A stretch of DNA of 20,072 nucleotides from a virus, in the IMG/VR virus record IMGVR_UViG_3300018024_000027, positions 1 through 20,072 of that record; one strand, given 5' to 3'. The notes beneath the pieces are model-generated. The model ran no database searches, was not told the origin of the DNA, and saw only the letters and a list, made by a program, of their open reading frames with translations. Shown piece after piece: positions 1,225 through 16,306 of the stretch. The position numbers and the translations under genes are program-made. Position 1 is the stretch's first letter; each line of letters starts with the position of its first letter.

Positions 1225-1623
1225 TTATACCACAGATGAAGTATTTTCGGAAGGGGATTGTCTGACGTTAGCATCAAGAATATCTTTTTGTTGATCTGTT
1301 AAACGATTAGAATATTCATCTAAGAATCTCAGCAGGAATTCTTTAGTTATCATGTCCGTAGGATGTTTAGTACGATATTCTTGTCGAGCGCATAAGAATT
1401 CTTCATCGGTAAACTTTCCAGGCCGACCAACAGGGTTCTTCGCTTTTGGTTCCTTGTGTTGTTTTTCCTTTATAGGGGATTTAGGTTCGGATAGTCCTAA
1501 TTCCTCTAATGTTTCCCATGTAGTTCCTTGCTTACTAACAATCCTTGATAAACCCTGATAACATCTACAGCATAATCCTCTAGCATATATACTTTCATTA
1601 CAACCATAACATTTACATTTCAT
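1225..1623 (-). CDS. zinc-knuckle protein, paralogue of the adjacent upstream gene
   Basis: A 132-residue protein. The first 40 residues form a small cysteine cluster: C3, C5, C8, then RGLC at 15-18 with C19 and C21. This is a likely treble-clef or zinc-knuckle site. The cluster aligns without gaps to the N-terminus of the neighbouring product at 1613-1816: MKC, C8, RGLC, CY at 21-22, V29-S30-K31 and TW at 35-36. After a Lys/Pro-rich linker with an AT-hook-like GRPGKF at about 67-71 comes a helical C-terminal domain that the paralogue lacks. Its start overlaps the paralogue's stop by 11 bases, so the two are co-translated. It could bind DNA or RNA near the terminase genes. No named family is recognised; the gene is convincing, the role is unknown. 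Confidence 0.78.
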   Translation of the reverse strand: MKCKCYGCNESIYARGLCCRCYQGLSRIVSKQGTTWETLEELGLSEPKSPIKEKQHKEPKAKNPVGRPGKFTDEEFLCARQEYRTKHPTDMITKEFLLRFLDEYSNRLTDQQKDILDANVRQSPSENTSSVV

Positions 1624-1816
1624 TAGAAATCTCCATAGATAAATTCTTCTTATTGGCTTCTATTTCCCAATATTTAGGAAGTGCCTGCTTTTTTTCAATT
1701 AACTCTTCCCATGTAAAGGTATTCTTACTAACTAACCTACACATGGCATTGTAACATGGCACACATAGTCCACGATATACAGCCGTGGTCTCACAAGAAC
1801 CATTAAGACATTTCAT
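1613..1816 (-). CDS. short zinc-knuckle protein, paralogue of the downstream gene
   Basis: A 67-residue protein consisting almost entirely of the cysteine module: C3, C8, C18 and C21 as putative zinc ligands, then RLVSK at 27-31 and TWEEL at 35-39. It is the stand-alone form of the module that opens the 132-residue product next to it, so a tandem duplication followed by gain or loss of the C-terminal domain is the simplest history. It overlaps the hypothetical gene upstream by 14 bases (1803-1816) and the paralogue downstream by 11. There is no membrane segment or signal. Function is unknown; a nucleic-acid-binding accessory role is a guess from the zinc module. Confidence 0.75.
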   Translation of the reverse strand: MKCLNGSCETTAVYRGLCVPCYNAMCRLVSKNTFTWEELIEKKQALPKYWEIEANKKNLSMEISNEM

Positions 1817-2069: not shown

Positions 2070-2107
2070 AATTCTCTCCTTCAAGTTAAAGTAAAGTGTA
2101 TTTATCT

Positions 2108-2136
2108 AATATAACATCAGTTAAGTAATTTGTCAA
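2108..2136 (-). promoter_or_regulatory. strong leftward sigma70-type promoter
   Basis: Read on the minus strand, a perfect TTGACA (2131-2136) is followed after 17 bases by TATATT (2108-2113). The GTG of the first leftward gene lies about 40 bases downstream behind AAGGAGAG. This should drive all the minus-strand genes from 2069 to the left edge. The upstream palindrome at 2169-2190 is well placed for an operator or activator site. Confidence 0.8.
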
Positions 2137-2168
2137 ATAAAATCCAGGAATTTTATACTTCTTTTAAG

Positions 2169-2190
2169 GAACTATCATATTTGATAGTTC
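2169..2190. repeat. perfect inverted repeat upstream of leftward promoter
   Basis: GAACTATCA and TGATAGTTC form 9-base arms around a 4-base centre (TATT). The element sits about 33 bases upstream of the leftward -35 box and is not followed by a T-run, so it looks more like a protein-binding dyad than a terminator. No second copy was found in the window. Confidence 0.55.
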
Positions 2191-2346
2191 GTGCAAAATG
2201 CGAAACCAAAGTAAGTAGAGATAGACCCCCATGAGAGTTTATAACAAAGTCAAGACAAATCAAGGTTTTAAAAACGTAGTTCTTATGGTGGTACAAGAGA
2301 ATTATTCCTTAGTAACTTGTGTAGGATTTAAGATGGAGAAGGATAA

Positions 2347-2397
2347 TTACTTACTACTATTACTACTACTACTTACTACTACTACTACGTATACGTA
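2347..2397. repeat. TAC/GTA triplet tract ending in a 12-base palindrome
   Basis: A run of TAC triplets, interrupted by single-base insertions, leads into the perfect palindrome TACGTATACGTA (2386-2397). Read on the minus strand the tract is a series of TAG and TAA triplets, the pattern of the DnaA-trio element of bacterial origins, but no DnaA box lies beside it. The 8-mer ACGTATAC in the palindrome recurs at 3251-3258, over the -10 box of the rightward promoter. Confidence 0.7.
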
Positions 2398-2510
2398 TAT
2401 GCGTATTGTCAGCCGTCAATAGTATCTCTTTCCTTTTATTAATTATATCTGATGTGATACTGATAAGATAAGATGATAATTATTTTAGGAAGTATTAAGA
2501 GGATGTCTAT

Positions 2511-2607
2511 TAACTCCTGTAGGGGGTTTGTATGCTGGATTCTCGACGATTTTGACCTTACCACTCGGAGGAGTTACATGGAGTTTTATATATTATATTT
2601 TTTGTGA
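2511..2607 (+). promoter_or_regulatory. leader ORF with sequesterable Shine-Dalgarno
   Basis: TAACTCCT at 2511-2518 is the exact complement of AGGAGTTA at 2569-2576. The second arm contains most of the strong Shine-Dalgarno GGAGGAG (2567-2573) that precedes ATG 2578. The ORF is only nine codons, encodes the hydrophobic peptide MEFYILYFL and stops at 2607. This arrangement fits a leader peptide or a translational switch, with 50 bases between the arms that could hold a sensor. No downstream structural gene begins before 3283, so the target is unclear. Confidence 0.4.
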
Positions 2608-2805
2608 TCTTTTATAATTCCTTACCTAGTAATGTTTACCCCTCGGTAGGAACAGTGTCGTTGCTCTCAATGGTATTACGACCAAAAGTAGGTGTGTCGA
2701 GGAAGGAGGGCTAGATAGATGTTTCTTGCCAATTGAGGGGCGAGGGGTCGATTGCTTTTCTGGATTAGTGGGTCCTCATTAACATTATATGCAATAATAA
2801 CTTAA

Positions 2806-2825
2806 GCCTGGTCCAGCCTGGTCCG
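2806..2825. repeat. tandem 10-mer repeat
   Basis: Two adjacent copies of GCCTGGTCC plus one variable base (A, then G) lie head to tail. The 10-base period equals about one helical turn, so both copies would face the same side of the DNA. Confidence 0.6.
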
Positions 2826-2840
2826 TAACGAGTCGTCTTG

Positions 2841-2861
2841 TGCCATTGGGCTGTAATGGCA
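2841..2861. repeat. 7-base-pair stem-loop
   Basis: TGCCATT and AATGGCA flank the 7-base loop GGGCTGT. The left arm plus GG (TGCCATTGG) recurs as a direct repeat at 3072-3080. There is no T-run after it, so it is not a terminator. Confidence 0.5.
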
Positions 2862-2941
2862 TGTATACCCACAGTAGTTTAGAGGGGCGATAGGTGGCAG
2901 TAAGAAAGAGTTAAACCTAGCCCACCCACGTTTTCCTAAAC

Positions 2942-2984
2942 AGTACACAGACATACACAGATATACCATATATAGTACACAGAC
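2942..2984. repeat. iteron-like TACACAGA repeats
   Basis: TACACAGA occurs at 2944-2951, 2954-2961 and 2976-2983, with starts 10 and 22 bases apart (about one and two helical turns). The longer 11-mer AGTACACAGAC is exact at 2942-2952 and 2974-2984. An AT-rich ATATACCATATATA stretch lies between the second and third copies. Such spacing is typical of sites for an initiator or repressor that binds one face of the helix. Confidence 0.55.
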
Positions 2985-3028
2985 CCTAATGGTAGTATAG
3001 TAACTGCCAAAACGGCAGCCACAGAATC

Positions 3029-3040
3029 GCGTTTAAACGC
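3029..3040. repeat. 12-base perfect palindrome
   Basis: GCGTTTAAACGC is fully self-complementary. A short hairpin (CTGCC, loop AAAAC, GGCAG) lies just before it at 3004-3018. Together with the iteron-like repeats this makes 2940-3040 the densest cluster of potential protein-binding dyads in the region. Confidence 0.6.
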
Positions 3041-3231
3041 CTTGGACAATCGACTATGAACATTATCACCTTGCCATTGGTCCGCGTAGAATCAAAGCCT
3101 AGAGCGTCAGTATGTTCATTTAAGACTACAAGGCATAACAGCCAATACAGCCCAGCCTATACATTCAATAACACGGCACGATACAATCGTACTACTAATA
3201 AAATACTTTCAAGAAAATCCTAAGAGCTAGC

Positions 3232-3259
3232 TTGACAGTATATATATACAACGTATACT
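3232..3259 (+). promoter_or_regulatory. rightward promoter with overlapping AT palindrome
   Basis: TTGACA (3232-3237), a 16-base spacer and TATACT (3254-3259) form a near-consensus promoter about 23 bases before ATG 3283. The spacer starts with the palindrome GTATATATATAC (3238-3249), and the -10 box lies in ACGTATAC, an 8-mer shared with the palindrome at 2386. Both look like operator positions. This should be the first promoter of the rightward arm. Confidence 0.78.
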
Positions 3260-3282
3260 TAATATAGAAAGATAGGTGTGAT

Positions 3283-3540
3283 ATGAAACATAATCGAAAA
3301 TACATACATGAATGGATTGCAACTACAGCAGGGGGACAAAGTTTTACATTCTGTGCTAGTAATCAACGTGATGCATGGAATAAAGCAAGGGAAATATGTC
3401 CACAACAAACTATTGCAAGTATTTGCCGAAAAATCAATGCTCATAAATTGTACGTTAAAAAGCATAAGAAAATGTTAAATGATGGAATAAGACGGCATGT
3501 TTATGAATCGTTATATATATCGGCCGATTCGGACAAATGA
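3283..3540 (+). CDS. hypothetical protein, first gene of the rightward arm
   Basis: An 85-residue protein rich in Lys, Arg and His. The ATG follows a Shine-Dalgarno-like AGGTG at a spacing of about 6 and lies just behind the promoter at 3232. Residues 1-35 (HEWIATTAGGQSFTFCASNQRDAWNKAREI) look like a small alpha/beta fold, and the middle carries two cysteines (C39, C48). No named family is recognised. Being promoter-proximal in an early phage arm, it could be a host-takeover or regulatory protein, but that is only position-based. Its stop overlaps the start of the next gene within a hairpin. Confidence 0.7.
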   Translation: MKHNRKYIHEWIATTAGGQSFTFCASNQRDAWNKAREICPQQTIASICRKINAHKLYVKKHKKMLNDGIRRHVYESLYISADSDK

Positions 3541-3564
3541 TTTTGTCCGAGTATTTTGTCCGAG
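3529..3564. repeat. hairpin and direct repeat over a stop/start overlap
   Basis: TCGGACAAA (3529-3537) and TTTGTCCGA (3542-3550) pair around the loop TGAT, and the stop and start codons of the two overlapping genes lie in the hairpin. TTTTGTCCGAG is then repeated exactly at 3541-3551 and 3554-3564. The second copy could pair with the same left arm, so two alternative hairpins are possible. Confidence 0.6.
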
Positions 3565-5735: not shown

Positions 5736-6110
5736 ATGAGAACAAAAAAAGTTACTGTTGTTTTTCGTAAGTGGAAGCCGGCGTATGGTTGTGGGATTAT
5801 TGCCCTATTTCCGAAAGAAATTGCCGACGATAAGGGTCTATATTGTGAATCTTACGAACATATCGGCCAACATGGCGGTGCAGATTATAAAGGTGTAATT
5901 GCGTCTACTACACCGGCAACACAAAACGAAAGCAAGGAATTGCATTGCGAATTAAAATCTCTGGGATACCGCTTGGCAGTGAGCACACATGAGAATCTGA
6001 CAACTCCTAATCATGCAAAAAAACACTCAGATATTGCCCTCCTTTATAAAGGTAATAAAGGCGACATTGACAAACGTCTTAATTGGTTGAAAGGGAAGTA
6101 TGTCTGTTAA
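5736..6110 (+). CDS. hypothetical phage protein (GQHG motif)
   Basis: A 124-residue protein. It begins with a strand rich in basic and aromatic residues (KVTVVFRKWK), then GIIALFPKEIADDKGLYCESY and EHIGQHGGADYKGVI (about 41-55). A later stretch, STTPATQNESKELHCELKSLGYRLAV, is followed by a basic tail. This order recalls a family of phage hypothetical proteins whose members share the FPE-x-A, Tyr-x-H-x-GQHG and E-L-x-x-x-x-GY-x-L blocks. Function is unknown. The start is weakly supported, since no Shine-Dalgarno is visible in front of ATG 5736. The stop overlaps the recombinase gene by 11 bases. Confidence 0.72.
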   Translation: MRTKKVTVVFRKWKPAYGCGIIALFPKEIADDKGLYCESYEHIGQHGGADYKGVIASTTPATQNESKELHCELKSLGYRLAVSTHENLTTPNHAKKHSDIALLYKGNKGDIDKRLNWLKGKYVC

Positions 6111-6762
6111 ACAGGCAATTATCTACTGTCGATTCTCTCCGCGACCTGACGCGGACACATCTAAAAGCAATGGGCAACAGGAAATTCGTTGTCGAATGTA
6201 TTGTGCCGCAAAAAATTATGATATAATAAGTAACTATGCCGATTCGGCCGTATCCGGCAAACAACTACATCGCCCTAAACTCTCGGCCCTCTTGGCCGAC
6301 TTACTCCAACACCCTGGGTGTGTAGTTGTTTGCGATACTGCCGACCGTCTTGCTCGAGATGCTCTTGTAATGCTCACTATTTGTGCTCAGATTGAGGCGG
6401 CCGGATGTACACTTGAATTTGCAGACGGAACACAGAATCGTACCACAAAGGAGGGGCGGCTGTTGCAAACTATCTTGGCGGGTATTGCCCAATACCAACG
6501 CGAAGGCATTGCCGAACGCACAACGATGGGGTTAGCTAAAAAGAAAGCCAATGGTGAATATCTTGGTAAGCCGCCATTGGGATATAAAGTAGTAAATAAA
6601 CATCTTGTAGAAAATCCCCAAGAGTTAATGGCAATTAAACGAATTAAGGAAATAGGTGCTTTGGGTTATACTTCAGAGTATGTCAGAAGTTGTATTGTCG
6701 CTGAATTTGGCATAAGTCCTTCTGCCCGTACAATTCGCAAGATTCTCCAAAATAAGTCTTGA
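6100..6762 (+). CDS. small serine recombinase (resolvase/invertase family)
   Basis: This 220-residue protein carries the N-terminal catalytic domain of serine recombinases. YCRFS at 9-13 has the nucleophile Ser13 and Arg11, DRLARD at 82-87 holds the conserved arginines, and a QREGIAERT helix at 133-141 (QFERE-like) leads into the oligomerisation helix. A YLGKPPLGY linker at 155-162 precedes a short C-terminal HTH that would bind the crossover site (about 165-218). The large integrase-type C-terminal domain is absent, so it is closer to resolvases or invertases than to phage integrases. It cuts and rejoins DNA via a phosphoserine link. The insertion between Ser13 and GQQ (PRPDADTSKSN) is longer than the usual TxxQ. 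Two possible roles are resolving phage dimers or inverting a segment; no inverted target is visible here. Confidence 0.88.
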   Translation: MSVKQAIIYCRFSPRPDADTSKSNGQQEIRCRMYCAAKNYDIISNYADSAVSGKQLHRPKLSALLADLLQHPGCVVVCDTADRLARDALVMLTICAQIEAAGCTLEFADGTQNRTTKEGRLLQTILAGIAQYQREGIAERTTMGLAKKKANGEYLGKPPLGYKVVNKHLVENPQELMAIKRIKEIGALGYTSEYVRSCIVAEFGISPSARTIRKILQNKS

Positions 6763-13857: not shown

Positions 13858-14033
13858 AAAAGAAAAATTTAATGGCATATATTTCTAAGTTTGATCTTGT
13901 GGGGGGGATTCATTATTTTGTAAGTTTTCAACCATTTACTCCGCGATTAGGGAAAAAATTTAATCATTATAAAGATGCTAGGAAGTATGCTTTAAGACAC
14001 GTTTACGTAAAAAATTTAAATAGCTATTGTTAA
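13854..14033 (+). CDS. hypothetical 59-residue basic protein
   Basis: ATG 13854 overlaps the helicase stop (ATGA), and the TAA at 14031-14033 overlaps the ATG of the prim-pol gene. The product is basic with an aromatic strand (GGIHYFVSFQPF) followed by a helix (YKDARKYALRHVYVKNL), a strand-helix pattern seen in small phage proteins. It contains a run of G (GTGGGGGGG at 13899-13907) that could be prone to slippage. No family is recognised. The gene is convincing from its two overlaps and continuous frame. Confidence 0.62.
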   Translation: MKKKNLMAYISKFDLVGGIHYFVSFQPFTPRLGKKFNHYKDARKYALRHVYVKNLNSYC

Positions 14034-16306
14034 TGAACCAACTCCTTGAAGCTGCATTAAGCTACGCCAATATCGGTTGGCATATATTTCCGCTTGTTCC
14101 CAAGCAAAAGGTTCCGCTTACTGAACATGGCGTAAAAGACGCTACTGTCGATACAATACAAATTAGAGAGTGGTGGTCTAAATGGCCTAATGCAAATATA
14201 GGTTTAGCCTGTGGTGAAAAAAGCGGAGTTTATATAATTGATGTTGATGTAGATTTAGAAAAAGGAATAAATGGTCTTGAATCATTAAAAGAATTTCCTC
14301 CCTTACCAGAAACAGTTAAACAATTTACTCCTAGGGGTGGCTTTCATGCGTTTTTCAAAACTAACAACCCGCCAGCTAATCGCAATAGTTTCCGTCCCGG
14401 CCTCGATATTCGCGGTTCTGGCTACTATGTGGTCCTTGCCCCTAGCGTGCATCCTAACGGCGGTCGGTATTGCTGGTGTGATAGCTGCTTATCAGGAGAT
14501 ATTGTCTTAGCCGAATACCCCGATTTCATGCGTCCTGTAACGCGGGCACCGTGGGCCTGTTCGGCTATGGCAAAAGACGCTACAAGCGTTTCGGTGCCCG
14601 CTCCTTTAGATATTTTACAACGTGCAAGTTTGTATCTTGCCCAATGTGACCCAGCCATACAGGGTCAAGCCGGTCACGATAAGTTATTGTGGGCCGCTAC
14701 TGCTTTAGTTCACGGGTTTCAATTGTCAGACAACCAAACTTATGATTTACTTACAAGGGAATATAACCCTCGTTGTGTCCCTCCCTGGGATTTAAGCAAT
14801 AAAAAAGATCAGAAAGACTTTGAACGTAAAATATCGGAAGCAAGAAAACTTACACCACAACATCAGAAAGGATGGTTGTTAAATGAACGAACTACTTGTG
14901 ATTCTCTTTGCACTATTGATATTGATAAATTGGTTTCAAACCAGAATACAATTACACATTGCGGAAAATCTACAATTTATTCATCAACAGTTGATCCAAC
15001 AGCGTCCATCGCACATAGATTATGTTCCACCCGAAAATATGAATTAGATTTCCTTTGCCAACCAACTGGATTATTAGGAGAAATTTGTTCATGGATAAAT
15101 TCGACATCGCTAAAGGCACAGCCATTTTTATCTTTGGCCTGCACCCTCGCTTTTTTGGGTGCTCTCTTTGGGAGAAAGATCAAGGACCAACTTGGAAGCC
15201 GGACTAACTTATATTGTATGGGAGTAGCTCAATCGAGTGCGGGGAAAGCCCATGCTATGAATCAGATTCGGAAGATTTGCATGGAAGCCGGGATCATAGA
15301 GATACTGGGTGGTGATGATATTGCCTCCGATGCTGCTATAGAAGAAAGAATGAGTAGAGTCGAATCTACCCTTTTTTTGTGGGATGAAATCGGCCATTTA
15401 CTTACTCATATAAAATCCGGGGCAAGTAAGCATTTATCCCAAGTTGTTTCTTTGCTAATGAAATTATATTCTGCTGCCGGCAGCAGTTATTGCGGGAAAG
15501 AGTACGCAGAACAAGGAAAACAGCGTACAATTATACAACCGTGTTGTTGTATTTATGGCACATCTACACTAGAGCGATTTGCTACAGGAATTACACAAGC
15601 AGAATTGCAAGATGGTTGGTTAAGTAGATGCTTAGTATTTCATTCTCCCGAAAATCCGATCAAATGTCGAGATAGACCAGACTCGACAGTACCTAAGTCT
15701 ATTATAGATCAAGTTCAAAAATGGTATCATAGACAAATTGGACCTGAAAATGATGGACATACACTTGACCCTTTTATTTCTCCGAGTTATACTAAACCTA
15801 TCCCACAACAAATTATAGTTTCAACTGACAATGAAGCCGAAAAAATCTTTATCGAATGCGACAATGAAAGTATCAAATATGGAAAAGAACAACCAGCACT
15901 TAATTGTCTCTGGGGAAAAGCTGAAGAGAACGCTAGAAGAATTGCTCTTATTATTGCCGCTGGAGAAAGATATACTGACTTACGAATTTCTTCCGCAAAT
16001 GCTGATTATGCGTGTAGGCTCAATAAATATTTACTTATAGATTTTGAAAAAAAGATTGTGCCAGAAATAGTAGCTGGTGAACTTGATAGCAGGAAGAGAA
16101 AGTTAGTTTCTATTATCGAAAAGAAAGGGGAAAAGGGTTGTGGCAAACGAGATTTAACTCGTAACTCACAGTGGACCAACCAAAAACAACGTAATGATCT
16201 AATTTCCGATCTTATTGAAGCCGGAGAAATTGAACAGCAATTAGATAAAGCAGGGCATTTAAAATATTGGACAACGGAATACTTTTTGAAATTGGAGAAG
16301 AAATGA
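14033..16306 (+). CDS. prim-pol / DUF3987-like primase-helicase fusion
   Basis: The 757-residue protein starts at ATG 14033 within the stop of the small gene; a TTG two codons earlier is less likely. The N-terminal half is a bifunctional primase-polymerase of the archaeo-eukaryotic type: metal ligands in IIDVDVD (D70, D72, D74), TPRGGFH with H105, and APSVHPNGGRY with H140. A helical linker resembling primase C-terminal domains follows (about 195-275). The C-terminal half is a DUF3987-like P-loop domain: Walker A-like GVAQSSAGKA (398-406) and Walker B LFLWDEIG (447-454), then a zone with three adjacent cysteines. It would synthesise primers and unwind the fork. The Walker A has GKA instead of GKS/T, so ATPase activity may be weak. 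The DNA polymerase is not in the window. Confidence 0.9.
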   Translation: MNQLLEAALSYANIGWHIFPLVPKQKVPLTEHGVKDATVDTIQIREWWSKWPNANIGLACGEKSGVYIIDVDVDLEKGINGLESLKEFPPLPETVKQFTPRGGFHAFFKTNNPPANRNSFRPGLDIRGSGYYVVLAPSVHPNGGRYCWCDSCLSGDIVLAEYPDFMRPVTRAPWACSAMAKDATSVSVPAPLDILQRASLYLAQCDPAIQGQAGHDKLLWAATALVHGFQLSDNQTYDLLTREYNPRCVPPWDLSNKKDQKDFERKISEARKLTPQHQKGWLLNERTTCDSLCTIDIDKLVSNQNTITHCGKSTIYSSTVDPTASIAHRLCSTRKYELDFLCQPTGLLGEICSWINSTSLKAQPFLSLACTLAFLGALFGRKIKDQLGSRTNLYCMGVAQSSAGKAHAMNQIRKICMEAGIIEILGGDDIASDAAIEERMSRVESTLFLWDEIGHLLTHIKSGASKHLSQVVSLLMKLYSAAGSSYCGKEYAEQGKQRTIIQPCCCIYGTSTLERFATGITQAELQDGWLSRCLVFHSPENPIKCRDRPDSTVPKSIIDQVQKWYHRQIGPENDGHTLDPFISPSYTKPIPQQIIVSTDNEAEKIFIECDNESIKYGKEQPALNCLWGKAEENARRIALIIAAGERYTDLRISSANADYACRLNKYLLIDFEKKIVPEIVAGELDSRKRKLVSIIEKKGEKGCGKRDLTRNSQWTNQKQRNDLISDLIEAGEIEQQLDKAGHLKYWTTEYFLKLEKK

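Follow-up and report, generated by a model that had tools for sequence, protein, structure and literature searches.

A fast-evolving non-coding element between divergent operons of uncultivated phages, a candidate replication origin

The window analysed here is the whole of a virus record, 20,072 bases long. Between its divergent operons lies a gene-free stretch of about 1.2 kb, and two further records carry this region at 100% identity. The region is probably a member of a family of non-coding elements that evolve fast and are shared, at this location, by at least 18 environmental phages and by a prophage of a cultured bacterium. We argue that it is a DNA-level phage control element, most likely a replication origin or an origin-like initiation site, and we give this explanation about an even chance of being right.

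The region and its neighbours

A previous sequence-only reading described 2137-3231 as a non-coding region between divergent promoters, and both descriptions hold. These positions are exactly the span separating the -35 boxes of two divergent promoters, TTGACA-17-TATATT on the minus strand and TTGACA-16-TATACT on the plus strand (Table 1). Codon-usage calling leaves the stretch free of genes. The longest open frame in the region has 76 codons, compared to a shuffle mean of 77. The frames are broken in the homologous element L088. A peptide-coding role is rejected on these grounds. The few members of the family with longer open frames are the GC-rich ones. A tRNA search of the window found none, and BLASTN against phage records gave no match. 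A possible third promoter points into the element, but no counterpart was found as a class among the other members.

The leftward operon encodes an HTH protein and two paralogous zinc-ribbon-like proteins. These tandem paralogues (1225-1623 and 1613-1816, minus strand) adjoin the element, and tblastx finds 43% identity between them over 49 aa. Genes of this kind also flank the element in L010, L104, L112, L147 and L164. On the right side are a small serine recombinase, a Sak4-like AAA protein, an SSB-like DUF669 protein, a Cas4-like exonuclease, a trypsin-like peptidase, a helicase, a Prim-Pol/DUF3987 primase-helicase and RusA. The peptidase (PF13365, 11222-12067) is encoded within the replication operon, flanked by the genes for the exonuclease and the helicase, which is an unusual position for a protease. 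A terminator-like hairpin, ATTCGGACAAATGATTTTGTCCGAGT (3527-3552), spans the boundary of the first two rightward genes, overlapping the stop of the former and the start of the latter. There are few Sak4 relatives in cellular genomes. Since they include Verrucomicrobiota, Lentisphaerae and Planctomycetaceae, their distribution suggests that the phage hosts lie in the superphylum of these groups, an assignment that rests on relatives.

Table 1. Features of the element, in window coordinates (a point marks features given no strand)
Feature	Position	Strand	Remarks
Whole intergenic element	2085..3282	.	Between divergent operons; gene-free by codon-usage calling
Leftward-operon promoter TTGACA-17-TATATT	2108..2136	-	11/12 consensus matches
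Possible promoter into element TTGTCA-18-TATACT	2130..2159	+	L088 keeps TTGTCA..TATAAC
Hairpin GAACTATCA-TATT-TGATAGTTC	2169..2190	+	L088 alignment; alifold z about -3 on both strands
Stretch almost identical in L088 (GTGCAAAATGCGAAACC..GACCCCC)	2191..2230	+	L088 alignment
AT-rich simple-sequence stretch (TACTAC repeats, GTATACGTATATGCG)	2348..2406	.	Relatives have TATATA/TGTGTG runs there
Motif M1 ACCAAAAGTAGG	2681..2692	+	L024 ACCAAAGGTGGGG; C. frondis prophage ACCGAAAAGTAGG; inverted in L104
Best window match to core profile built without the window	2692..2750	+	E 0.2, next 6.7
Motif M2 GGAGGGCTAG	2705..2714	+	60 nt before GGGTCC
GGGTCC, counterpart of near-invariant GGGGCCCC	2770..2775	+	
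Hairpin TGCCATTGGGCTGTAATGGCA	2841..2861	.	L112, L164: hairpins of different sequence at similar offset
Motif M5 CTAGCCCACC, complementary to M2	2917..2926	+	Counterparts in L011, L024, L112, L163
C- and A-rich tail	2917..3230	+	Precedes rightward promoter
Three direct repeats TACACAGA	2944..2983	+	Starts 2944, 2954, 2976; start spacing 10 and 22 bp
Rightward-operon promoter TTGACA-16-TATACT	3232..3259	+	11/12 consensus matches

A family of elements with a G-rich core

L088 was reached through the leftward HTH gene. It shares the left two thirds of the element (76% over 2097-2318, 73% over 2673-2855), with a diverged and hardly alignable middle part (2319-2672). The distant Sak4-bearing phages L010, L011, L024 and L028 have gene-free divergent regions of 1.1-1.4 kb, and reading these side by side revealed a common G-rich core. 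The Sak4 proteins of the family phages are only about 53-63% identical to that of the window. Two pattern scans of all IMG/VR contigs, with motifs taken from already known members, gave matches almost only in this phage group. A sequence-only profile of ten cores (R1) recovered more members in records outside its model, with E from 6e-14 to 9e-4. It also recovered two of the three new contigs of the last pattern scan; the third has E 3e-10 with the next profile, whose model included that contig. There are 18 distinct phage elements: the window, L088, L010, L011, L018, L024, L028, L030, L104, L108, L112, L114, L121, L138, L147, L161, L163 and L164. Besides the window and L088, syntenic or profile-matched elements are thus present in 16 phage records. 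In most members the same kind of element lies between diverging genes or operons. The pattern matches L090 and L093 were rejected as coincidences in coding sequence. L148 and L170, single weak matches in Planctomycetota genomes with no phage context seen, look like chance. About 780 genomes of two phyla held no further convincing members.

A second profile (R2) was built without the window and L088. It matched a prophage of Cerasicoccus frondis NBRC 105381 (Verrucomicrobiota) with E 1.4e-4. The prophage element, near 146.3 kb of contig JAVDPC010000005.1, lies between a leftward terminase operon and rightward genes, and its CACCGAAAAGTAGGCACACGTCGGGCGGGGGGTAACTT resembles GACCAAAAGTAGGTGTGTCGAGGAAGGAGGGCTAGAT of the window. 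The same contig carries Prim-Pol, RusA-like, serine recombinase and Sak4 genes. This prophage (L168, G046 C5 140000-156000), with its terminase, serine recombinase, RusA-like and Prim-Pol genes, is a cultured relative of the uncultivated phage group. The small serine recombinase (resolvase domain, 220-224 aa) is encoded at 6100-6762 in the window and at 11229-11903 in L168. Some relatives have parts of the element inverted, so the recombinase may have a link to DNA inversion.

It must be noted that the profile alone does not prove that the window is a member. The best R2 match falls at the core with E 0.2 (7.2 bits), the next best has E 6.7, and nhmmer on the window gives E 8.2. L088 behaves like the window, with E 0.16. 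We argue that membership is likely from the position of this match together with the synteny, the 60 nt spacing, the skew profile and the presence of repeats in the matching place.

The consensus of the core is GTGGCGnnGGAGGSGGGSTA...GGGGGGTGG...GATT...TGGGGCCCC. Its order and spacing are conserved. The distance from motif M2 (GGRGGSGGGCTA) to GGGGCCCC is 57-61 nt in 9 of the first 10 members and 51 in L010. The window has 60 nt between M2 and GGGTCC, which is a variant of GGGGCCCC. Consensus folding found no conserved local fold of the core. The AT-rich stretch is often accompanied by a hairpin and M1 (ACCAAAGGTGGGG) in the members. The richest 60-mers are 62-90% AT across the family, and in many members they reach up to 82-90%. 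L024 has a long, nearly perfect inverted repeat inside its element (1737-1913), with a chance Rfam match to MIR1515. It looks like a small inserted mobile repeat, and a second copy of M1 is found just left of it.

Hairpins occur about 90-135 nt after M2, and their sequence differs from member to member. A direct or palindromic repeat array follows 135-350 nt past M2 across the family. The window was previously called repeat-bearing, and it is. The TACACAGA repeat is absent from the rest of the 20 kb on either strand, and among 2000 shuffles only 2 gave any 8-mer in three spaced copies within 45 nt. This array stands where relatives have TGTAGTCAnnnTGACTACA palindromes, in 2 or 3 copies in several members. 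The palindrome pattern was derived from the elements it was counted in, and its absence elsewhere (0 in about 0.19 Mb outside the elements) is the informative part. Other repeats are TCGATACA (twice in L030) and TGTACTAGT (twice in L112), so the repeat sequence varies among members. All members have a C-rich, G-poor and usually CA-rich tail, and the rightward promoter was found with 10-11 of 12 matches in six of them.

The base counts of the sequence-only reading were reproduced exactly: G82 and C47 in 2641-2910, G51 and C84 in 2911-3240. When the members are aligned on M2, G exceeds C in the bins from -50 to +50 in 16 of 17, and none of the 17 is G-rich at bin +300. The mean profile has a G peak at -50 to +50 and a C trough at +250 to +400. 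Since this profile recurs across members, the G-to-C reversal is a conserved property of the element in nearly all of them. The argument that the direction of the skew speaks against an origin is weak, since the local switch from G to C is itself conserved as part of the core. The cumulative skew that was proposed as a check reaches its lowest point at the element's left edge, both in the window and in several relatives. In most records the minimum of whole-genome GC skew also falls at the element, but these minima track gene direction. They therefore prove nothing for or against an origin, and we discard them as evidence. The region is conserved enough to be functional, with core, spacing and skew profile kept in 17 members.

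Origin, RNA or regulation

The candidates raised earlier, an origin, an RNA or regulation, were the right ones. We argue for a DNA-level element, and within that class for an origin. It lies between a leftward operon and a rightward operon that leads into the replication genes. A phage DNA-binding protein would bind the phased repeats, TACACAGA in the window and TGTAGTCAnnnTGACTACA in relatives. The G-rich core, built on a fixed 60 nt geometry, would be a conserved assembly or strand-separation site, and the AT-rich simple-sequence stretch would open. The phage Prim-Pol/DUF3987 primase-helicase, SSB and Sak4 could then act at the opened site. Protein binding, melting and initiation at the element are what we infer from its sequence. 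That the phage group carries Prim-Pol/DUF3987 primase, helicase, SSB, Sak4, exonuclease and RusA counts for an origin. Of the features by which an iteron origin is judged, the element has phased repeated sites unique to its locus (three copies of TACACAGA at spacings of 10 and 22, putative binding sites) and an AT-rich stretch (above 70% AT in 12 of 17 members, a candidate unwinding site). There is no initiator-like gene adjoining the element, the primase gene being 11 kb away (14027-16306), and DnaA boxes are not in excess (3 found, 4.1 expected). The differences in repeat sequence among members and some base-pair compensation on the plus strand also count against an origin.

One can instead imagine that the plus strand (about 2166 to 3230) is read into a large structured non-coding RNA, which would represent a new class and could be the primer of an RNA-based origin. 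We consider this unlikely, if still a serious contender. The G-rich part would pair with the C-rich 3' part, and the RNA would end at the CA-rich unstructured tail, perhaps by Rho. The possible promoter at 2130-2159 is retained in L088, and a C-rich, G-poor tail is present in every member. M2 and M5 are complementary, and their differences match between the window (CTAG) and L024 (GGCTACAT/ATGTAGCC). However, this long-range helix is found in several members and not in all, so we do not use it as proof of an RNA. G-rich transcripts form stable R-loops, which would suit an RNA-primed origin. In the most far-reaching reading, the 105-nt G-rich core, retained while the rest of the 1.1-1.4 kb element changes fast, would mark a new large phage RNA class or an RNA-primed (R-loop) phage origin, with hosts in the Verrucomicrobiota and probably related phyla. 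We hold this reading to be slightly less likely still.

The folding evidence is divided. Compensatory changes had been proposed as a check, and a few exist. In the 2169-2190 hairpin of L088 one T-A pair becomes C-G and the closing A-T becomes G-T, the latter a change that preserves pairing only on the plus strand. The alifold z for L104/L028 also favours the plus strand (-3.4, versus -0.6 on the minus strand). Neither L108/L114 nor L112/L147 has a strand preference. Each of these covariation alignments had only two sequences. The many dyads reported earlier are only partly borne out. In the window alone, fold energy is ordinary on either strand and the core part has z -0.8, but across 17 members it is unusual, with a mean z of -2.0 on the plus and -2.1 on the minus strand. 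A scan for the sigma-70 consensus found no promoter enrichment upstream of the core (mean best score 7.8 on the plus strand, 8.35 on the minus strand, about 8 in shuffles). The suggestion of GOLLD or ROOL fails as well. No Rfam family matched the window at gathering score or E<=5. Among the relatives, at E<=2 and <=0.5, there were only chance miRNA, snoRNA and sRNA matches far below gathering scores. GOLLD is rejected for having no covariance-model match (E<=5) and no tRNA nearby, and ROOL for having no such match in the window (E<=5) or the relatives.

Two further observations bear on DNA versus RNA. Three members have a portion of the element inverted or moved with respect to the core: M1 is inverted in L104, and the AT-rich stretch is downstream of the core in L112 and L147. 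Inversion of a module is tolerable for DNA modules but not for a single folded RNA, so it counts for a DNA-level element. The half-sites of the palindromes are often not complementary to each other, for example TGTCATCA/TGACTACA in L104, and so the palindromes suit protein sites better than hairpins. The DNA-level element is favoured because of these half-sites, the inversions, the strand-equal fold z and the lack of promoter enrichment.

A transcription-control region would also be a DNA-level element. The repeats would be operators for a phage repressor or early regulator, and the core a host-factor or anti-termination site. There are divergent promoters on both sides, and HTH genes adjoin the element in L010, L028 and L104. 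However, 1.2 kb is large for operators, and the repeats are some 130-380 bp away from the rightward promoter, with a distance that is steadier to the core than to the promoter. For the HTH protein of L104, a close homologue exists only in the record of L028 and not in other phages with the same palindromes, so this protein is rejected as a general palindrome binder. We think transcription control distinctly improbable. An origin is preferred over it because the repeats keep their distance to the core and the element accompanies replication genes, which is an argument by inference. It is scarcely credible that the region is a functionless neutral or decaying spacer, or a site of inserted repeats: it diverges fast (2319-2672 hardly aligns even with L088) and the L024 element holds a large inverted repeat, but core, spacing and skew profile are conserved in 17 members and independent profile finds reach E 6e-14 to 9e-4.

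Comparison with known systems

The element is assigned to no known family, and its closest resemblance is to a replication origin or control region of a kind not recognised before. GOLLD is usually, but not universally, found in or near tRNA arrays. GOLLD and ROOL RNAs are non-coding, 0.6-1 kb long and rich in dyads, and are carried by phages or prophages (PMC12286853). Our element is likewise a phage- and prophage-borne non-coding stretch with dyads. It differs from them in that the window element has no model match at E 5, no tRNA nearby and no consistent strand-bias or promoter evidence for an RNA, and in that the core keeps its sequence but shows no local fold.

Extrachromosomal mycobacteriophage prophages have an RNA-based origin: their replication requires a non-coding region of 0.4-0.5 kb that is transcribed (PMC7157519). 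These origins adjoin parABS, and RNA-seq and plasmid assays stand behind them (PMC7157519). Here too a non-coding phage region is proposed as the start of replication, but no par genes are seen and the hosts are different. Because such origins are known, the combined reading, in which an origin is primed by its own G-rich RNA, stays alive.

Phage P4, with ori/crr and the primase-helicase alpha, is an example of an iteron-type theta origin. The element resembles this type in its phased direct or inverted repeats, AT-rich stretch and phage-coded primase-helicase. It is unlike it in having no adjacent initiator gene or DnaA boxes, and in that the repeats vary between relatives while the conserved part is the G-rich core. 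ColE1-type origins are RNA-primed. The G-rich sense strand of the element could form an R-loop as in these, but no RNAI-like antisense is seen, size and order differ, and a primer RNA is only hypothetical here.

In uncultivated phages, control loci that do not encode proteins almost never receive an annotation, since their sequences change too quickly for searches to follow. Synteny and a core profile recovered one such family here. The C. frondis prophage copy, being in a cultured bacterium, opens origin activity, transcription and protein binding to direct tests. If the element is an RNA, it would represent a large phage RNA of a new class; if an origin, it would be a recognisable origin type for the phages of Verrucomicrobiota and their relatives, and a basis for replicating vectors.
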